Origin: Lachnospiraceae bacterium
Lineage (GTDB): Bacteria; Bacillota; Clostridia; Lachnospirales; Lachnospiraceae
NCBI GenBank assembly: GCA_024693925.1
Contig: JAILKH010000045.1
Location: 1 to 51,555 of the forward strand
DNA: 51,555 bases
Reading direction: 5' to 3'
Shown here piece by piece: positions 22,295 to 47,088 of the stretch; positions within the stretch are counted from its first letter, which is position 1; each line of letters starts with the position of its first letter. A program made the translations under genes and the position numbers. The notes under the pieces were generated by a model. The model worked only from the letters and a program-made list of their open reading frames with translations. It was not told where the DNA came from and made no database searches.

Positions 22295-23164
22295 TCATTC
22301 CCTGTCCATATGTACATCCAGCTGATTATACGGTATTTCTATCCCATTCTCGTCAAAGCGCTTCTTTATATCCTCCAGTATCTGCCATCTTGAAGTCCAG
22401 TATTCGGATTTCTTAACATAAAATCTCATACCCATATCAATACTGCTGGAATTAAGTTCACTTACAAATATCAGCTTCTCTTTGTTATGCACAACAAAAC
22501 TCTCACTGTCAAGAAGATCTCTCAACACCTGCTTAACCTTATCAATATCGCTGTTATAAGAGACTCCTACTATTATCTCAAGTTTTCTGACATCATAAAA
22601 TGTAACATTGGTAACCGTTGTATTAGACATTACGCTGTTCGGAACGATTATTGATCTGTTATCCACCGTCATAAGCCTTGTATAAAACATCTCTATACCA
22701 TCTACCGTTCCCTCGGCATTGATACCCGATACCACCACATAATCCCCGACTCTGAAAGGTTTTGTCAAAAGTATGAGCATTCCACCGGCAAAATTCGATA
22801 ATGAACCCTGAAAAGCAAGACCGATAGTAAGACCGGCCGATCCGAGTACAGCAACTATTGAGGCTGTTTCAACTCCAAAATATCCTGCCAGTAAGCCTAT
22901 AAGCAAAACATACAAAATCACTTTTACCGTTGCATCGATAAAATTGATATTACTTTTATCTATAGAAGATTTTTCCAGTGATTTAACCACCAGTTTTCTT
23001 ATAAGCTTTATTGCATATTTCCCAATGAAAAATAAAATAATAACAATAACAACTTTAACGGCTGCATTCAAAGCTCCATCAAATAATTCACCGGTATATC
23101 GTTGAAATCTTGTAAATTCCTTTGTTACATCCTGTGCAACATCCTGAGCGACAACCTGTTGCAT
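22295..23164 (-). CDS. mscS: MscS-family small-conductance mechanosensitive channel
   Basis: This 289-aa channel opens under membrane tension to release solutes after osmotic downshock. Three hydrophobic segments fall at about residues 33-52, 78-100 and 105-130. The third is the pore helix with Gly/Ala packing (GSAGLTIGLAFQGSLSNFAGG), followed by the beta domain (FRVGDYVVVSGINAEGTVDGI) and an alpha/beta C-terminal domain. The N-terminal VAQDVAQDV helix is short, giving the simple three-TM form. Its ATG overlaps the glgB stop as TAATG, so translation is coupled to the branching enzyme, an unexpected pairing. Confidence 0.95.
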   Translation of the reverse strand: MQQVVAQDVAQDVTKEFTRFQRYTGELFDGALNAAVKVVIVIILFFIGKYAIKLIRKLVVKSLEKSSIDKSNINFIDATVKVILYVLLIGLLAGYFGVETASIVAVLGSAGLTIGLAFQGSLSNFAGGMLILLTKPFRVGDYVVVSGINAEGTVDGIEMFYTRLMTVDNRSIIVPNSVMSNTTVTNVTFYDVRKLEIIVGVSYNSDIDKVKQVLRDLLDSESFVVHNKEKLIFVSELNSSSIDMGMRFYVKKSEYWTSRWQILEDIKKRFDENGIEIPYNQLDVHMDRE

Positions 23165-25509
23165 TAATCTATCAAACCTCTTTCTTCCCTTATATATTTT
23201 TCTTCAAGCTCATGTCTTAAGGATTTTTTCCCTCCCTTATTATCATCACCTTTTCCCTTTGTTTTTTTTGCGGAATTCTTTTTTATATCAGCGGGTCCGT
23301 CATATCTGAATACGGATACCGCAAGAGGTCCCACACTTATCCTTATGGAATCATCTCTTCCGTCGCATTCATCTACCTTGGAAACCTTAACTCTTGGATT
23401 TACACATCCCGTACCGCCGTATTTTACATTATCGGAATTAAATATTTCCTTATATTTTCCGGCAAAAGGAACACCTATCTTATACTTCTCCCTGTTTATA
23501 TTTGCGAAATTACAAACCACCAGTAAAGTTTGGGATTCACATTTACGCAAAAATACGATTATACATTCATTTGCCGAAATATTATTGATCCATTCAAAAC
23601 CTTCTATTTCATTATCCCGTTCATACAAAGCAGGATTATTCTTATAAAAATCAAGCATTTCCTTAACATAAGCATTAAACTTCTTATGTTCGTCATACTG
23701 TAGCAGCTCCCACTGTACACTTCTTTCTTCGGACCATTCATCCCACTCCCCGATATCCTGTCCCATAAAAGTCAGAATCTTTCCCGGATGAGTCATCATA
23801 TAACCGTATGCGGCACGAAGATTGGCAAACTTATCCTTATTCGATCCCGGCATTTTGGAGAGCATGGAAGCCTTCCCATGAACAACCTCATCATGTGAAA
23901 ATACCAGAATAAACCTTTCCGAATATGCATATATCATTGAAAATGTAAGTTCCGTATAATGACCTGTCCTGAACAAAGGGTCATACCGCATAAACTCGGT
24001 AAAATCATTCATCCAGCCCATATTCCACTTGTAATCAAAGCCCAGACCATCATCATCCAGGGAAGCCGAAACTCTGGGCCATGCCGTAGATTCTTCCGCT
24101 ATGACGATGGCACCATCATCCATTTTGGAATGAATGGAATTAAAATGCTTAAGAAACTCCACTGCTTCTAGATTCTCATTCCCACCGTATATATTGGCTA
24201 CCCATTGTCCGTCCTGTTTTCCGTAATCCAGGTAAAGCATGGAAGCAACCGCATCCATTCTGATACCGTCCGCATGATACTCTTTTATCCAATATAAAGC
24301 ATTAGCCAACAGATAATTACTTACCTGTGGTCTTCCGTAATTATATATTGAAGTCTTCCAATGAGGATGATAACCCTGTCTGGGATCAAGATGTTCATAC
24401 AGACAGGTACCGTCAAACTCGGAAAGTCCATGATCATCCTTGGGAAAATGAGCCGGAACCCAATCCAGAATAACGCCGATACCCTTATTATGCATATAAT
24501 CCATAAAGTACATAAAATCTTCGGGTTCTCCGTATCTGCTTGTAGGTGCATAATAGCCGATGATCTGATATCCCCAGGAAGCATCCAGGGGATGTTCCAT
24601 TACAGGCATTACCTCTATATGGGTATAACCCATTTTTAACACATAATCCGCAATACGCGGAGCAAGCTCTCTGTAATTATAGAACTCTCTTCCGTCCTCG
24701 GGTTTCATAAAAGACCCCAGATGAACTTCGTATATACTTAAAGGTTTATCTTTTCCCTGATATTCTTTTCTTCCGTCCATCCATTTTTTATCGGTCCACT
24801 CATATCCTGAAATATCCCTTACTATAGAAGCCGTTGCCGGGCGAAGCTCTGCACCAAAGCCGTATGGATCCGATTTAAATTTTATGATATCACCCTTTAA
24901 CTTAAGTTCATATTTATAAACAGCACCTTCTTTAAGACCGGGGATGAAGATTTCAAATATCCCTCCATCTTTAAGTCTTCTCATCTGATGTCTTCTTCCG
25001 TCCCAATTATTAAAATCACCTACAACACTTACCCTCAGTGCATTAGGCGCCCACACTGCAAAAGATACTCCCTTTACACCGTCGATCTTCCTTATCTGTG
25101 CTCCCATAACCTTATATGCCTCATAATGTATTCCGGCATTCAACCTGGCTATATCCTTATCCGTAAGGACCGGGGCAAATCTGTAAGGATCCTGAAGCTC
25201 ATAGGATTCACCTTCACTGTTATATATCTTGAAATAATAACTGTACCTGATTTTAGTAAGACTGCGGACAAGCACTGCGTAGAAACCGGTTTCATCCATT
25301 AATTCCATGGTGTATTCTTTAAAAGTATCCCCCGTTTTTACCACAGCAATTACCTTATCTATATCTTCCTCTCCGGGAAAATAAGCTTGTATGAGAATTC
25401 CGCCGGAAACATAATGTCCGCCAAGAAAGCTGTGGGGATCATCCTCTTCCGAATAAACAAGCCCCTCTATTCTTGCCCAATCCATCATCTTATACAGTTT
25501 TTTATCCAT
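23164..25509 (-). CDS. glgB: 1,4-alpha-glucan branching enzyme
   Basis: GlgB introduces alpha-1,6 branches into glycogen-type glucan. The 781-aa product has two N-terminal beta-sandwich modules (one with DPHSFLGGHY, the second a CBM48 with SFAVWAPNA and VVGDFNNWDG) before a GH13 barrel. Active-site residues are intact: nucleophile Asp in DGIRMDAVASM, acid/base Glu in IVIAEESTAWP, and FSHDEVVHG. The last about 45 residues are a Lys-rich extension beyond the usual C-terminal beta domain. ATG 25509 has AGGAG 10 nt upstream and is preferred to the longer start at 25533. It is the intact counterpart of the degenerate GH13 protein at 41-43 kb. Confidence 0.97.
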   Translation of the reverse strand: MDKKLYKMMDWARIEGLVYSEEDDPHSFLGGHYVSGGILIQAYFPGEEDIDKVIAVVKTGDTFKEYTMELMDETGFYAVLVRSLTKIRYSYYFKIYNSEGESYELQDPYRFAPVLTDKDIARLNAGIHYEAYKVMGAQIRKIDGVKGVSFAVWAPNALRVSVVGDFNNWDGRRHQMRRLKDGGIFEIFIPGLKEGAVYKYELKLKGDIIKFKSDPYGFGAELRPATASIVRDISGYEWTDKKWMDGRKEYQGKDKPLSIYEVHLGSFMKPEDGREFYNYRELAPRIADYVLKMGYTHIEVMPVMEHPLDASWGYQIIGYYAPTSRYGEPEDFMYFMDYMHNKGIGVILDWVPAHFPKDDHGLSEFDGTCLYEHLDPRQGYHPHWKTSIYNYGRPQVSNYLLANALYWIKEYHADGIRMDAVASMLYLDYGKQDGQWVANIYGGNENLEAVEFLKHFNSIHSKMDDGAIVIAEESTAWPRVSASLDDDGLGFDYKWNMGWMNDFTEFMRYDPLFRTGHYTELTFSMIYAYSERFILVFSHDEVVHGKASMLSKMPGSNKDKFANLRAAYGYMMTHPGKILTFMGQDIGEWDEWSEERSVQWELLQYDEHKKFNAYVKEMLDFYKNNPALYERDNEIEGFEWINNISANECIIVFLRKCESQTLLVVCNFANINREKYKIGVPFAGKYKEIFNSDNVKYGGTGCVNPRVKVSKVDECDGRDDSIRISVGPLAVSVFRYDGPADIKKNSAKKTKGKGDDNKGGKKSLRHELEEKYIREERGLID

Positions 25510-25593
25510 AACAATTTCACTCCTGTACATCATATTTTCAGATCAAAAAAGATCTTCTCATATATTTATTATAAGGTTTTTATGATTGAAGCT

Positions 25594-40889: not shown

Positions 40890-41387
40890 TCATTCCCTGT
40901 TTAATTTTTTCAACTTTCTATTTCTTGCCACATCAATAAGCTCTTTACTTTCATTAAATGCTTCAAAAAGTTCTTCCGTATCAGGCTTTTTCATATGCTT
41001 TTTTTCATAAGCCTTAAGTTCATCCCAAGTTTTTAATTCCCTGCCGTTTTCATCAAAAACCGGCTTTTTAAAAACATGGGGATGGCGCATTATCATCTTT
41101 TCACTGATAGTACCGCATACATCATCAAAATCAAAGAGCCCTTCCTCTTTAGCTATCCGGGTCTGAAGAAGGATTATAAACAGAAGATCTCCCAGCTCTT
41201 CCTTTAAATTATCGGGATTTCCGGTTTTTACATATTCATTTATCCCGCAGATAACCTCCGCTGCTTCTTCGATAACATGAGCTTTTAAAGATTCATGCGT
41301 CATTGACTTATCCCAGGGACAGCCGTTTTCTCCTCTTAATTCCTCAACCACCTTAAGCAGGCGCAGGATTTCATTTCCGCTACTCAT
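40890..41387 (-). CDS. mazG: MazG-type nucleoside triphosphate pyrophosphohydrolase
   Basis: MazG hydrolyses NTPs or dNTPs to monophosphates and pyrophosphate, a house-cleaning role. The 165-aa product has one MazG domain with the metal-binding pattern IEEAAEV and LKEELGDLLF plus the N-terminal ENGCPWDKSMTHESLK signature. It is shorter than the two-domain 263-aa E. coli form, as is common in Clostridia. It overlaps the end of the upstream GH13-like gene by 8 nt, indicating coupled translation. Confidence 0.93.
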   Translation of the reverse strand: MSSGNEILRLLKVVEELRGENGCPWDKSMTHESLKAHVIEEAAEVICGINEYVKTGNPDNLKEELGDLLFIILLQTRIAKEEGLFDFDDVCGTISEKMIMRHPHVFKKPVFDENGRELKTWDELKAYEKKHMKKPDTEELFEAFNESKELIDVARNRKLKKLNRE

Positions 41388-43290
41388 GCCTTCCTGCCTT
41401 CTTTACCATTCTTTTAGCCTTACCTTTTTGCGCAGGATCATCTTTACTTATAAGTACCAGCACGGTTCTTGCCGGAACCTTTATTATCTTATTACCATTA
41501 TCATCAAGTTCAATATTATAAGCTTTGGGATCTGAAGAATCCGTGTCAAGACAATAAGACCACTCCATTCCTTTTTGCAACTTCGGCAAAGCAAAGAAAT
41601 GCTCCTCCCAATGCATATTCGTCGCAATATAGAAATAATCATCTGCTTTATCTCCGGCACCGTATTCTCCGCAAAGCAAAGTGCCGATATGTCTTATATG
41701 GGTATCTATCTGAGGATACCAGGCCATCTCGGCATGATATGAAATATCCGGATAACCACAGGACTTATTATCAAGAAGTGTGGCTTCCTTATCCATGGAA
41801 AGCACTCCATGATTTTTCCTTAATGCAATAAGATCCTTTACATATTCAAACAGCTCGGCGGTCCTGTTATTCTGTTTCCAGTTAAGCCAGGTGATCTCAT
41901 TATCCTGACAATACGGATTATTATTTCCGTACTGGGTATTCATGAACTCATCTCCGGCCATAAACATTGGCATACTCTGTGAAAAGATAAGAAGACAAAA
42001 AGCATTCTTAAGCTGTTTCATACGAAGCTTCAATACCGCGGACTTTCTGGTCTTTCCCTCAATTCCGCAATTCCAGCTGTAATTATAACCGGTTCCGTCC
42101 TTATTCTCTTCTCCGTTATTTTCATTATGCTTATAATCATAAGAAACAAGATCATTTAAAGTAAACCCGTCATAGGATGTTAAATGATTTATACATTTTA
42201 TTCTTTCGGGATTACATCTTTGACGATACATAAATTTACTGAGCATATCCTCATCGCTCTTTAAGAATCTTCTCATATCGATCATATAATCCTGATTATA
42301 TTCAGCCAGATTCTTATTAATACAGCATTGGGAGACCGAGAATATACCTTCGGCATTATATCTCTCATAATATAATTTGGTTCCCGTGAGGATAGGATCC
42401 GTCGCAAGAACATCCATAGGCAAATGTTCTCCGAAGACATGAAAACCATCCACATGGTATTCTCTTTGCCAGAACCTTAAACATTCACCGATAAGATTCC
42501 TGTTTACCTCAAGGGGAAAATAGAACTGCATTATAAGCTCGATCCCGGCTGCATGCAGAGCACGTACCATATCCTTGAACTCCTTAATCCCATCCTCTGT
42601 ATAGCACAGCTGCGGCTTCGGATAGAAATATTCTCCTTCTTTAAACCCCCAGTAATTTATCCTTTTCTGGGCGCCGGTGACTTTACCCTCTTCATCCGTT
42701 TCCGAGGATTTATAACTTTTTATCGATTCACATTCGTCATAATCATAAGCCGGCATCATTTCAATCTGGGTAATACCCAGGTCTTTAAGATATGATATTT
42801 TCTCGGCAATTCCCTGAAAACAGCCTTTTGCCGTCACTCCGGAAGTCGAATGCCTTGTGAATCCACGTACATGAAGCATATATCCGATAACCTTGCCAAA
42901 AGGAAGCCTTAAGGGTTTATCTCCCTGCCAGTCATATTCGGGGTCATATATACGATAATGGATCGTCCGGTTTCTGTATTCGCCCCATTTACGCTTATTG
43001 TCCGCCCTCATTGCATAAGGATCACGTACTGCCTCATTACCGAAATAATAATTATAATAAACCTCCGATGGTATTATACCCTTAACTATAACGGAATAAA
43101 CATTTCCAAAGACAGAATAATCATTCATCTCAATATTATAAAGAATCACACCGCTGTTATCGTATATTTTCAGGATCAGTTTCTTTCCTTCCGGGCAGAC
43201 CGTACAAAACTGTATTCCCTCTCTGACAACCGTTGCTCCGTAGGGATAACCGGCTCCAATGCTCACATTATTATTATCCATATATATCAT
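41380..43290 (-). CDS. GlgX/isoamylase-like GH13 protein with lost catalytic residues (predicted pseudoenzyme)
   Basis: This 636-aa protein has a CBM48-like N-terminus and a GH13 barrel of the glycogen-debranching type (HVRGFTRHSTSGV, NYWGF, LVSYDYKHNENNGE, YSWNCG, MPMFMAGDEF). Its active site is degenerate. Region I, normally DVVYNHT, reads QFYFPLE (residues 255-261), and about 50 residues of loop that should follow are absent. Region II, normally VDGFRFD, reads VDGFHVF (280-286), so the nucleophile Asp is lost. Region IV, normally HDGFTL, reads YDGFTL (373-378). The likely acid/base Glu309 remains. The frame is intact with no stops, so the gene is maintained. It may bind glucan without hydrolysing it; this is inference. 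It heads a unit with mazG, a YtxH-like gene and a lactonase. The start has only a weak GAAGAAAG site. Confidence 0.88.
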   Translation of the reverse strand: MIYMDNNNVSIGAGYPYGATVVREGIQFCTVCPEGKKLILKIYDNSGVILYNIEMNDYSVFGNVYSVIVKGIIPSEVYYNYYFGNEAVRDPYAMRADNKRKWGEYRNRTIHYRIYDPEYDWQGDKPLRLPFGKVIGYMLHVRGFTRHSTSGVTAKGCFQGIAEKISYLKDLGITQIEMMPAYDYDECESIKSYKSSETDEEGKVTGAQKRINYWGFKEGEYFYPKPQLCYTEDGIKEFKDMVRALHAAGIELIMQFYFPLEVNRNLIGECLRFWQREYHVDGFHVFGEHLPMDVLATDPILTGTKLYYERYNAEGIFSVSQCCINKNLAEYNQDYMIDMRRFLKSDEDMLSKFMYRQRCNPERIKCINHLTSYDGFTLNDLVSYDYKHNENNGEENKDGTGYNYSWNCGIEGKTRKSAVLKLRMKQLKNAFCLLIFSQSMPMFMAGDEFMNTQYGNNNPYCQDNEITWLNWKQNNRTAELFEYVKDLIALRKNHGVLSMDKEATLLDNKSCGYPDISYHAEMAWYPQIDTHIRHIGTLLCGEYGAGDKADDYFYIATNMHWEEHFFALPKLQKGMEWSYCLDTDSSDPKAYNIELDDNGNKIIKVPARTVLVLISKDDPAQKGKAKRMVKKAGRHE

Positions 43291-43374: not shown

Positions 43375-43404
43375 ATTATAACACAAGTCACAGAATACTT
43401 CCAA
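43375..43404 (-). promoter_or_regulatory. Candidate extended -10 promoter for the GH13-like gene unit
   Basis: On the minus strand TGTTATAAT (TATAAT at 43375-43380 with TG one base before it) is an extended -10, with TTGGAA at 43399-43404 (18-nt spacer) as a partial -35. The -35 lies inside the last helicase codons. The leader to the GH13-like start is about 85 nt. Confidence 0.5.
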
Positions 43405-45268
43405 CAGTTTCAGTCTTAAATCCGGCTTCTCCGATGAATCTGGATTCTCTTTTTCCGTAATTATCCCGTTTTATTCCCATAAGCCAAAGTCGTTTCTTAG
43501 CCCTGGTCATGGCTACGTAAAAAAGTCTTCTTTCTTCCTCCATCTGCTTTATACCCATATTTCTCTTTCCCGGAAACAAACCTTCCTGAAGGCCTATAAG
43601 AAACACATTATCAAACTCCAGCCCCTTTGAGCCATGTATGGTCATCAACTCAATCCTGTTATTTATACTGCTGTTTCCCTTTTCGGTACAGCTGCCTCTT
43701 TCAATATCGGCAAGCCATTCTTTAAAGGTACTGTATTGTCTTGCTCTCTCCCTTATCTCCCCTATGATCACCTCAATATCATCTCTGCTCCTGTCGGCAA
43801 AATAATTATTCTCTATGTACCGGTATAACCCGATCCCCTTTAGAATATAATTAACCCCCGCATAACAATTCAACCCTTTTATATACTCAATATCTTTAAA
43901 TAATTTTACGCAGGCATCATATCCCTCTTTAAGATAAACGGAACCCTCATAATACTTTAACACCTCCTCCTTTATTAAGGGCCGGTGGCTTATGCTTTCC
44001 CTGACCAGTCCCCTGTAGGGCTTGTTAAGTACTCTGAACAACTGCTCTTCTTCACCGTATGCAAACCTTATATAAGCCAGAATATCCTTAACCCAGTCCT
44101 TATCATAGAAATCCGACTTCCTGTCTTTTCTTGTATATGGTATGGATTCCCGCTTAAGGAATTCCTCCAGCATATCCACACTCCTTGAATTCCGGTATAA
44201 AACCCCTATAGATTCATATTTTCCGTCCGCCGCTTCAGCAGTTATCCTCTTTATGATATTTATGCAGTATACTGCTTCTTCCCCCACCGAACCAAAGCAT
44301 TTATGTTCGATACAATATCCCTTGATCGATGACTCTTCTTTATCTCCTTTTGATACTTTATCAGAATTGATACATATCTGTGTTTTATCGAACCTGTCCT
44401 TATTATGGCTTATAAGCCTGCCGGCATGACTTATTATCTCCCCCGGACATCTGTAATTTAACTTAAGCTTAACCTGCTTAGCCTCCGGATAATCCTTAAC
44501 AAATCTTTTCATTACTTCAGGCTGCGCCCCTCTGAAGGAATAAATAGACTGATCATCATCTCCCACACAGAAAATGTTGGCATCTTTACCGGCCAGAAGC
44601 TTCATAACCTCATATTGCCTAAGATCGATATCCTGAAATTCATCCACAAGTATATATCTGTATCTTTCCTGCCACTTATTAAGGATAAGAGAATTGCTTT
44701 TAAGAGCCTTCAAACAGTCATTTATCATATCGTCAAAATCAATTAATCCTTCTTTTTTACACAACAAAACATAAGGATCATACAGCTTTTCCAACAGTTC
44801 CTTATCATCCCCTGATATATCCGCAAGAAAAGCCTTATCTCCCATCTTCCTATAGCCTATAAGCTCAACCATCCTTTCCGCATCGGAAATATCCATAAAG
44901 GGCTTAAGCCCCTTACGTCCCGCGGTTATCTTAAGTAATTCGATTTTTTTATTACGTGTTAGGATTTCGCCTGTTCTGTACAGGCCCTGACGTTTTAAAA
45001 TATGATAAAATACGGCGTGAAATGTACCAAAAGTCACAGGATACGATGTGCTTACAAGATCATCAAATCTTGAATGCATTTCCTCAGCAGCAAGCTTTGA
45101 AAATGTCAGCACTAAAATATTATGCGGATCTGTCTTCTCAACTTCAATAAGCCTTTTTACCCGGTTAACAAGAACCGATGTTTTTCCGGAGCCCGGACCC
45201 GCAAGTACCAGCATAGGACCGTCCCTGTGTGCAACGGCCCTTTGCTGCTCATTATTCAATTGATGCAT
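43388..45268 (-). CDS. UvrD/PcrA-family ATP-dependent DNA helicase
   Basis: This 626-aa superfamily 1A 3'-5' helicase has Walker A AGPGSGKT at residues 23-30, motif II LVDEFQDIDL, motif III GDDDQSIYSFRGA, motif IV LNYRCPG, motif V MTIHGSKGLEFDNVFL and motif VI FYVAMTRAKKRLW. All core motifs are intact. It is shorter than PcrA/UvrD (about 720-750 aa), mainly from a reduced 2B region and no C-terminal tail. It could be a second UvrD-like helicase alongside a full-length PcrA elsewhere. It follows DUF1292 by 17 nt in the gltX unit. Confidence 0.92.
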   Translation of the reverse strand: MHQLNNEQQRAVAHRDGPMLVLAGPGSGKTSVLVNRVKRLIEVEKTDPHNILVLTFSKLAAEEMHSRFDDLVSTSYPVTFGTFHAVFYHILKRQGLYRTGEILTRNKKIELLKITAGRKGLKPFMDISDAERMVELIGYRKMGDKAFLADISGDDKELLEKLYDPYVLLCKKEGLIDFDDMINDCLKALKSNSLILNKWQERYRYILVDEFQDIDLRQYEVMKLLAGKDANIFCVGDDDQSIYSFRGAQPEVMKRFVKDYPEAKQVKLKLNYRCPGEIISHAGRLISHNKDRFDKTQICINSDKVSKGDKEESSIKGYCIEHKCFGSVGEEAVYCINIIKRITAEAADGKYESIGVLYRNSRSVDMLEEFLKRESIPYTRKDRKSDFYDKDWVKDILAYIRFAYGEEEQLFRVLNKPYRGLVRESISHRPLIKEEVLKYYEGSVYLKEGYDACVKLFKDIEYIKGLNCYAGVNYILKGIGLYRYIENNYFADRSRDDIEVIIGEIRERARQYSTFKEWLADIERGSCTEKGNSSINNRIELMTIHGSKGLEFDNVFLIGLQEGLFPGKRNMGIKQMEEERRLFYVAMTRAKKRLWLMGIKRDNYGKRESRFIGEAGFKTETVGSIL

Positions 45269-45285
45269 GTATTACCTTTCTTAAA

Positions 45286-45624
45286 CTATTCCTCATCCAT
45301 AAAAAACTCTTCATTATCAAGGAATTCATCAAAAGCGTCCTCAACCGCTTCATATTCCTCATCATCCTCAATAAAGGTTAATTTAGGCTCTACATTGGGA
45401 TCCTTCTCATCCTCTTCATAACGGTAGAACCATACTTCTCCATCCTTACTGTCACCATTTTCATCCACCGGCAATAAGGCAATATAATCCTTCTTATCCA
45501 CCTCCAGGATCGTTATGACTGCACAATTTACTACGGACCCATCTTCAAGCTCAAGCTCCACGGACATCTCCTCGCTTGGAGTATTATCATCAATCAACTC
45601 ATTATTGTTCTCTTCTTTTTTCAT
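45286..45624 (-). CDS. DUF1292 family acidic protein
   Basis: This 112-aa highly acidic protein is of the DUF1292 family. It has the core VELELEDGSVVNCAVITILEV and YIALLPVDENGD...GEVWFYRYEED, followed by an acidic C-terminal tail (EAVEDAFDEFLDNEEF). No enzymatic motifs are visible, and the family's role is unknown. AGGAG lies 6 nt before the ATG. It lies 12 nt downstream of gltX and 17 nt upstream of the helicase, in a three-gene unit. Confidence 0.9.
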   Translation of the reverse strand: MKKEENNNELIDDNTPSEEMSVELELEDGSVVNCAVITILEVDKKDYIALLPVDENGDSKDGEVWFYRYEEDEKDPNVEPKLTFIEDDEEYEAVEDAFDEFLDNEEFFMDEE

Positions 45625-45636
45625 TATTATCTCCTT

Positions 45637-47088
45637 TTATTCAGATAATCTTGCAATTCCATCCTCTATCCTTTTTATGGATTCTTCTTTACCCAGGATT
45701 TCCATAAGCTCGGTTGCTCCGCCCGGAGTCATCTGTTTACCGGACAAAGCCGTCCTTACAGGCCACATTACATATCCGTTCTTAACGCCCTTTTCTTCCA
45801 CATATTTGCTCAGTAGTGCATACAGAGCATCATTACTGAAATCTTCATGGTCTTTAAGAAGCACCAGAACATCTTTTAAAACCTCAAGGGAAGTCTCGGC
45901 ATTTGTCTTCATCTTTTTATGAGTATACATCTCTATATCATAATCCGGAAGCTCTTCAAAGAAATCTATATGCTCTTTGATATCCGGGAATATTTCGATC
46001 CTTGTCTTAACCATACCTGCTATCTTTCTAAGATCAAGATCCTTAGTTATGACTTCTTTGATATAGGGCAAAGCCATCTCATAGAACACTTCGAAATCCA
46101 TCGCTTTAATATATTCACCATTCATCCACTTAAGCTTGGTATAGTCAAATACCGCAGGACTTTTACTCATATGCCTGTAATCAAACTTCTTAATAAGCTC
46201 TTCAAGAGACATTATCTCCTGATTATCCTCGGGACTCCATCCGAGAAGTGCTACAAAATTGACAATGGCCTCGGAAACGAATCCCTGTTCAAGCAGGTCT
46301 TCATAAGAGGAATGACCGCTTCTTTTACTAAGCTTCTGATGATTCTCATCGGTAATAAGAGGACAATGAATATACACCGGCACCTCCCATCCAAAGGCTT
46401 CATACAATCTGTTGTATTTAGGTGAAGAGGATAAATATTCGTTTCCTCTCACAACATGGGTGATTCCCATAAGATGATCATCAATTACATTTGCGAAATT
46501 ATAAGTCGGATAACCATCCGATTTAATAAGTATCATATCATCAAGTTCGGCATTATCAACGGTAATATCCCCGTAAATATCATCGTGAAAAGTAGTTGTA
46601 CCTTCCGTAGGATTATTCTGTCTTATAACATAAGGTTTACCCTTTGCAAGATTATCCTCAATCTCTTCCTGACTTAAATGAAGACAATGCTTATCATAAA
46701 CCTTCATTTCCTTGCCGTCTATAACCTTAGTAAGACTTTCCAGTCTCTCCTTATCACAGAAACAGTAATATGCCTTTTTCTCTTCAATAAGCTGTTTTGC
46801 ATACTTAAGATAAATACCCTGTGCCTGTCGTTCGCTCTGAACATACGGACCTACGCCCCCATCCTTATCCGGACCTTCATCGTGTACAAGTCCTGTTTTC
46901 TCCATAGTGCGGTAGATTATATCAACCGCCCCTTCCACGAATCTTTCCTGATCCGTATCTTCTATTCTAAGAAGAAAATCTCCGTTCTCATGCTTTGAAA
47001 TAAGATACGCATACAGAGCGGTTCTTAAATTTCCTACATGCATTCTCCCCGTCGGTGACGGAGCAAACCTTGTTCTTATCTTTGTCAT
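45637..47088 (-). CDS. gltX: Glutamyl-tRNA synthetase
   Basis: GltX charges tRNA-Glu, and in many Firmicutes also tRNA-Gln. The 483-aa class I synthetase has the HIGH-type motif [11 protein letters not shown] (residues 10-20) and the KMSKS-type KLSKR at 252-256. The [11 protein letters not shown] stretch and C-terminal anticodon domain complete the family pattern, and length is standard. A consensus promoter with TTGACA and TATTAT lies 68 nt upstream and is divergent from the prs promoter. No T-box leader is visible in the short upstream region. Confidence 0.97.

Follow-up and report, generated by a model that had tools for sequence, protein, structure and literature searches.

Does a GlgX-like protein that has lost catalytic residues represent a gene falling into disuse, an unusual enzyme, or a protein with a function of its own? 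The question is raised by a 51,555-nucleotide stretch of a Lachnospiraceae genome (contig JAILKH010000045.1; the whole stretch is termed the window here), in which an unbroken reading frame of 636 amino acids, at 41380-43290 on the minus strand, encodes a relative of the glycogen-debranching enzymes. The protein matches the NCBIfam equivalog model for GlgX, TIGR02100, with an E-value of 1.4e-93 and 314.2 bits, short of the cut-off of 640.9, and the solved structures nearest to it by sequence are those of isoamylase 1, isoamylase, TreX and GlgX. A preliminary description of this DNA had proposed a clean frame whose product has lost its catalytic centre and is kept by selection, with an intact glgB elsewhere in the window; the frame is as described, and the glgB is indeed present at 23164-25533 (900.9 bits against a cut-off of 741). 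The protein and its relatives of the same type are referred to below as pseudo-GlgX.

Active site and fold of the window protein

In GH13 enzymes the conserved regions II, III and IV supply the catalytic nucleophile (Asp), acid (Glu) and stabiliser (Asp) respectively. The available portion of PMC5347038 assigns the triad roles as we use them here. For comparison we took the window genome's own intact GlgX (C80, 693 aa), which lies outside the window, and aligned the window protein with it. Region I of the enzyme, DVVFNHT, is replaced by QFYFPLE (residues 255-261; 42508-42528, minus strand), and region II, VDGFRFD, by VDGFHVF (residues 280-286; 42433-42453, minus strand), with F286 at the place of the nucleophile Asp; in region III LIAEAWD is matched by LYYERYN, whose Glu, E309, aligns with the acid; and in region IV CHDGFTL has become SYDGFTL, the His being lost and the stabiliser Asp kept as D374. 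The loop between regions I and II has 24 residues against 68 in the enzyme, so that 44 are missing—close to the 50 or so originally estimated—and a second gap, of 14 alignment columns, follows region II. The motif changes first reported for regions I, II and IV thus hold against an enzyme of the same genome. The loss of the catalytic centre holds as regards the nucleophile; what that claim passed over is that in the alignment this copy keeps the Glu and the second Asp, two of the three carboxylates of the Asp-Glu-Asp triad.

An AlphaFold2 model built from 51 sequences (pLDDT 85.9, pTM 0.89) retains the framework of a glycogen-debranching enzyme, as had been supposed. It shows the isoamylase (GH13_11) arrangement of CBM48-like domain, (beta/alpha)8 barrel and C-terminal beta-sandwich, and its best Foldseek match in the PDB is rice ISA1 (9j60_A, E 4.6e-48), followed by ISA1-ISA2 complexes and GlgX or TreX. 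The first strand of the model is at residue 9, and one N-terminal domain precedes the barrel strand at residue 136; Pfam CBM_48 reaches 16.8 bits, short of its cut-off of 22.4. With bacterial GlgX and TreX the protein has in common the order of domains, the motifs KHNE..WNCGxEG and GNNNxYCQD, and the C-terminal domain; it differs from them in lacking the nucleophile, in its degenerate regions I-III, in its shortened loop and in its low TIGR02100 score. From the model it would follow that the conserved loops after beta7 and beta8 share the barrel face of the active site, the degenerate motifs coming after beta3 to beta5, a placement that leans also on general knowledge of (beta/alpha)8 barrels. 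Disorder of the KHNE..WNCG and GNNN loops was considered as a clue and rejected: confidence is low there in the model, and low there too in the model of an intact-enzyme control (mean pLDDT 81.5).

Catalytic residues and distribution in the Lachnospiraceae

Relatives were divided by the length of the region I-II loop, for which no protein falls between 30 and 60 residues. On the short side (23-24 aa) are 81 pseudo-GlgX proteins, that of the window included; on the long side (68-69 aa) are 31 rows representing 30 distinct intact GlgX proteins, the window genome's own having been entered twice. The 80 named loci are the best of at least 596; L001 and L003, as duplicates, and a GH13 ORF of L104, as unrelated, did not enter the triad count. 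At the nucleophile position none of the 81 pseudo-GlgX has Asp (22 have Asn and 16 Met, the remainder other residues), 17 keep the acid Glu, 17 keep the stabiliser Asp, and in 50 the entire triad is gone, whereas all 30 distinct intact proteins retain nucleophile and acid, one of them ending before region IV. Every pseudo-GlgX has lost the nucleophile, and losses at the other positions are scattered. Because each is kept in only 17 of the 81, the catalytic Glu and second Asp of the window copy are not conserved features of the type. Sixty-six columns are conserved at 95% or above among the 81 proteins, and 54 of these are conserved in intact GlgX too; the preliminary description had allowed for a different Asp/Glu pair in the active site, and none peculiar to pseudo-GlgX stood out among these columns.

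Some pseudo-GlgX proteins are shorter, with ORFs of about 560-600 aa (L051, L061, L095, L143, L150-L152 and L154). In the alignment L051, L061 and L095 have a gap at the region III stretch, and in most of L143, L150-L152 and L154 the profile match breaks near region III.

An unrooted tree was computed from 41 of the 81 pseudo-GlgX (every second one) and the 31 long-loop rows, on columns filled in both groups; it contained no plant ISA2 sequence. A single branch (SH-aLRT 100) parts short-loop from long-loop rows, and terminal branches are longer in pseudo-GlgX than in intact GlgX. Judged by sequence, pseudo-GlgX is a pseudoenzyme lineage akin to GlgX, old and spread through the family, and one that has probably lost debranching catalysis, since all 81 members lack the nucleophile and the active-site loop is shortened.

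The family was sampled in 299 genomes from 298 genera, 243 of which gave a match in a protein search. Re-examination of 37 ambiguous genomes by profile search left seven that seemed to hold intact GlgX only; in one of these, G048, the end of a contig bears a C-terminal fragment nearest to the dead-type proteins, and this genome was counted as a carrier. In these draft assemblies about 237 of the 299 genomes carry pseudo-GlgX and 100 carry intact GlgX, fragments included (G042, G045, G048): 94 have both, 143 pseudo-GlgX alone, six intact GlgX alone and 56 neither. A class-wide sample has pseudo-GlgX in 8 of 10 family genomes and 0 of 281 others; six genomes from outside the family matched strongly, and the nucleophile Asp is present in all six. 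In a phylum-wide sample, at E 1e-60, it is found in both family genomes and in none of 167 others, two of which are also in the class sample. Named relatives among the matches listed are mostly Lachnospiraceae, while some are entered under Eubacterium, Clostridium or Clostridiales, or simply as Bacillota. Orthologues, whose absence had been put forward as a sign of a decaying gene, are thus not lacking, and equivalent catalytic losses are found across the Lachnospiraceae: pseudo-GlgX is a lineage kept by most sampled genera of the family, rather than a broken gene.

The synthase gene glgA was considered as a possible co-occurring partner and set aside as uninformative, being near universal (289 of the 299 genomes); of the ten genomes with no glgA match, four carry pseudo-GlgX.

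Selection, site of constraint and genomic neighbourhood

L033, the nearest relative of the window protein at 68% identity, is too distant for estimating dN/dS, since synonymous sites between the two are saturated; closer pairs were therefore taken. Three pairs of same-genus genomes having both genes, two of them near synonymous saturation, give values of 0.056, 0.123 and 0.125 for pseudo-GlgX against 0.020, 0.030 and 0.037 for intact GlgX. Frames are open across the match in all 29 orthologues inspected. Over these three genome pairs pseudo-GlgX is under purifying selection, as originally proposed, and is less constrained than the enzyme.

The constraint was located by comparing segments of 30 pseudo-GlgX and 20 intact sequences, mostly from the family, with L157 left out. 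Over the whole protein, identity is 0.46 in pseudo-GlgX against 0.64 in intact GlgX; in regions I, II and III it is 0.38, 0.41 and 0.26 against 0.93, 0.74 and 0.86, and in the CBM48-like N-domain 0.31 against 0.61. The beta7-alpha7 loop KHNE..WNCGxEG (residues 387-412 by the strands of the model; 42055-42132, minus strand) is close to the enzyme's, at 0.75 against 0.83. In the C-terminal domain (residues 501-615; 41446-41790, minus strand) the order is reversed, 0.45 in pseudo-GlgX against 0.38, and its core, residues 507-577, stands at 0.53 against 0.40. The ratio of pseudo to intact identity in 60 subsamples is 1.19 (SD 0.04) for the C-domain and 0.68 (SD 0.01) for the rest, and in a wider set the C-domain identities are 0.38 and 0.30. 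C-domain columns conserved at 85% or above number 25 in pseudo-GlgX (34 listed, minus nine gap columns) and 14 in intact GlgX, 12 being common to both; D507, D515, Y518, R533, C540 and Y543 are among those peculiar to pseudo-GlgX. Alignment A2 comprised the window protein and 50 of 51 referenced loci, all but L080, and alignment A3 28 of the 29 intact loci, all but L101. Of 51 pseudo-GlgX members, 26 match Pfam ISOA1-3_C and 8 match CBM_48 (at E 0.01). The shift of constraint to the C-domain is the best evidence that pseudo-GlgX has a function of its own.

In the window the pseudo-GlgX ORF overlaps mazG (40890-41387, minus strand; PF03819) at its end by 8 nt, and mazG overlaps an 81-aa ORF by 4 nt; these overlaps make co-expression of the three plausible. 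A transcript joining pseudo-GlgX with mazG, the mini-protein and a lactonase had been described; as a clue to function it is not supported. The neighbourhood was surveyed at 81 other places, represented by 83 loci of which two repeat a place; flanks extended over 1.5 to 10 kb and in some cases stopped short at a contig end, which makes the counts lower bounds. In these flanks, many of only 1.5 kb, mazG was found at none of the 81 places; its linkage looks local to the window genome, and the operon clue was dropped. Nor did the 81-aa ORF turn up at another place, although so short and biased a query may escape detection. The recurrent neighbours are DUF5662 (at least 51 places), DUF1292 (at least 38), a helicase (at least 30), gltX (at least 22) and lactonase (at least 17); no glycogen gene is among the recurrent families at the 81 places.

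Three of these companions, gltX, DUF1292 and the helicase, occupy 43388-47088 in the window. The helicase, UvrD/PcrA-like (43388-45268, minus strand), lies 97 nt upstream of the pseudo-GlgX ORF and between the window and L033 is less conserved than pseudo-GlgX (56% against 68% identity). DUF1292 shares the strand of pseudo-GlgX in the window; of the 20 listed loci that have it, 17 carry it on the other strand. DUF5662, a function-unknown family (found for example at L034), is near pseudo-GlgX at 51 of the 81 places and is not beside the window ORF.

The intact GlgX of the window genome (L155:5525-7606) scores 629.5 bits with TIGR02100, just below 640.9, so this cut-off may miss true GlgX in Lachnospiraceae. 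At that locus (L155:3008-8908, G000:C80) a GGDEF diguanylate cyclase gene precedes intact glgX by 6 nt, and a gene for a hybrid histidine kinase with a GGDEF domain follows it after 24 nt. The GlgX of S. venezuelae is activated by c-di-GMP, according to the accessible part of PMC9530166. A c-di-GMP link was rejected: of the 29 other intact loci only 2 have GGDEF-like matches, as do 2 of 51 pseudo-GlgX loci.

A proposed glucan-binding role and its alternatives

The reading that we prefer, giving it slightly better than even credence, is that pseudo-GlgX is a non-catalytic glucan-binding accessory or scaffold protein of glycogen metabolism. An old GlgX-related lineage would have lost debranching catalysis, along with its nucleophile and part of its active-site loop; what it has retained are the loops that follow beta7 and beta8, on one side of the barrel face, and with them a C-terminal domain more tightly constrained than the enzyme's. 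This surface would bind alpha-glucan chains without cutting them, and the glycogen-bound protein might shape or regulate the polymer, or recruit other glycogen enzymes. It seems able to do without intact GlgX as a partner, given that none is seen in 143 of the 237 carriers. Glucan binding is the most likely retained property, as suggested by the kept GlgX surface and by analogy with plant work: in the available part of a review (PMC12892837), rice ISA2 raises ISA1 activity and a C-terminal segment of ISA2 binds four glucoses, and an excerpt of PMC12510319 calls maize ISA2 noncatalytic and has it influence glucan form. Counting against the accessory role are the poorly kept CBM48-like N-domain, the lack of glycogen genes among the recurrent neighbours and the two carboxylates of the window copy. 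A more specific form, which we think unlikely, makes pseudo-GlgX a glycogen-architecture protein: a dead GlgX whose C-domain and half-cleft would hold chains, replacing or supplementing enzymatic debranching, convergent with ISA2 and needing no active isoamylase partner.

In function the nearest parallel known to us is plant ISA2, of which pseudo-GlgX would be a bacterial variant. Both have the GlgX/isoamylase fold, have lost catalytic residues and have long been retained, and Foldseek matches ISA2 chains. They differ in that the extra N-terminal beta-sandwich domain of ISA2, described in the portion of PMC12510319 available, is not seen in the window model, while pseudo-GlgX has the 44-residue loop deletion and most of its carriers have no intact GlgX as partner. 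We infer that it arose independently of ISA2. Another dead paralogue in the glycogen pathway of Firmicutes is GlgD, the non-catalytic partner of GlgC; it shares these traits with pseudo-GlgX, and has another fold and acts at another step.

The scaffold might have been exapted outside glycogen metabolism, as a sensor of a small ligand or nucleotide or as a partner of neighbouring gene products such as the helicase or DUF5662, a possibility that we regard as fairly unlikely. It would suit a set of recurrent neighbours—DUF5662, DUF1292, helicase, gltX, lactonase—that includes no glycogen gene, and the c-di-GMP site of S. venezuelae GlgX (PMC9530166, in the part available); but the conserved columns are mainly GlgX's own, 54 of 66, and gltX is a housekeeping gene.

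That pseudo-GlgX is an ISA2-like regulatory subunit, functioning only as a heteromer with intact GlgX, appears improbable. The two genes do co-occur, pseudo-GlgX being found in 94 of the 100 genomes with intact GlgX and in 143 of the 199 without (odds ratio 6.1, Fisher p 3e-6, uncorrected for relatedness; 5.2 and 1e-5 without the G048 fragment), and plants provide the precedent of ISA1-ISA2 complexes (PMC12510319 and PMC12892837, in their available parts). An obligate GlgX partnership is nevertheless unlikely because the 143 carriers without an intact match, out of 237, include the same-genus genome G193, at 99% completeness. Bacterial GlgX is, moreover, generally monomeric according to the available text of PMC12510319; that of S. 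venezuelae is an antiparallel dimer in crystals, according to the corresponding part of PMC9530166.

Less probable again, and in our estimate very unlikely, is that pseudo-GlgX is active as an enzyme of an unusual kind, relying on other carboxylates in the altered cleft, and is perhaps the missing debrancher of GlgX-less genomes. Among the 143 pseudo-only genomes, 106 (G193, for example) have neither intact GlgX, nor a type I pullulanase over cut-off, nor GDE_C, although glgA is near universal; the window copy keeps E309 and D374; and a GH13 amylase with His for the stabiliser Asp is still active (PMC5347038, in the portion available). That amylase, however, lost the stabiliser only, whereas pseudo-GlgX lacks the nucleophile in 81 of 81 members and keeps the acid in 17, no clade-specific conserved acid pair stood out, and in some members the region III stretch is gone too. 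From the 106 genomes we draw that either another enzyme debranches in them or debranching is dispensable.

A decaying gene without function has next to no likelihood: catalytic loss, end branches longer than those of intact GlgX and a dN/dS some three to four times the enzyme's would fit it, but it was rejected in view of the open frames (29 of 29) and dN/dS of 0.056-0.125, and C-domain constraint is stronger than the enzyme's.

In the open-licence PMC literature, as far as its available text extends and with subscription papers outside this scope, we found no description of the pseudo-GlgX clade; the papers found there, in the parts available, treat non-catalytic isoamylases as belonging to plants and algae. 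Blautia obeum has two glgX homologues by the count of one review (PMC10395257, in the part available). Pseudo-GlgX is a bacterial lineage without the catalytic residues, commoner than true GlgX in its family, with its constraint shifted to the C-domain. Surveys that count it as GlgX would predict debranching in genomes without the enzyme, 143 of the 237 carriers having no intact match. Through it the role of dead isoamylases can also be approached in bacteria.
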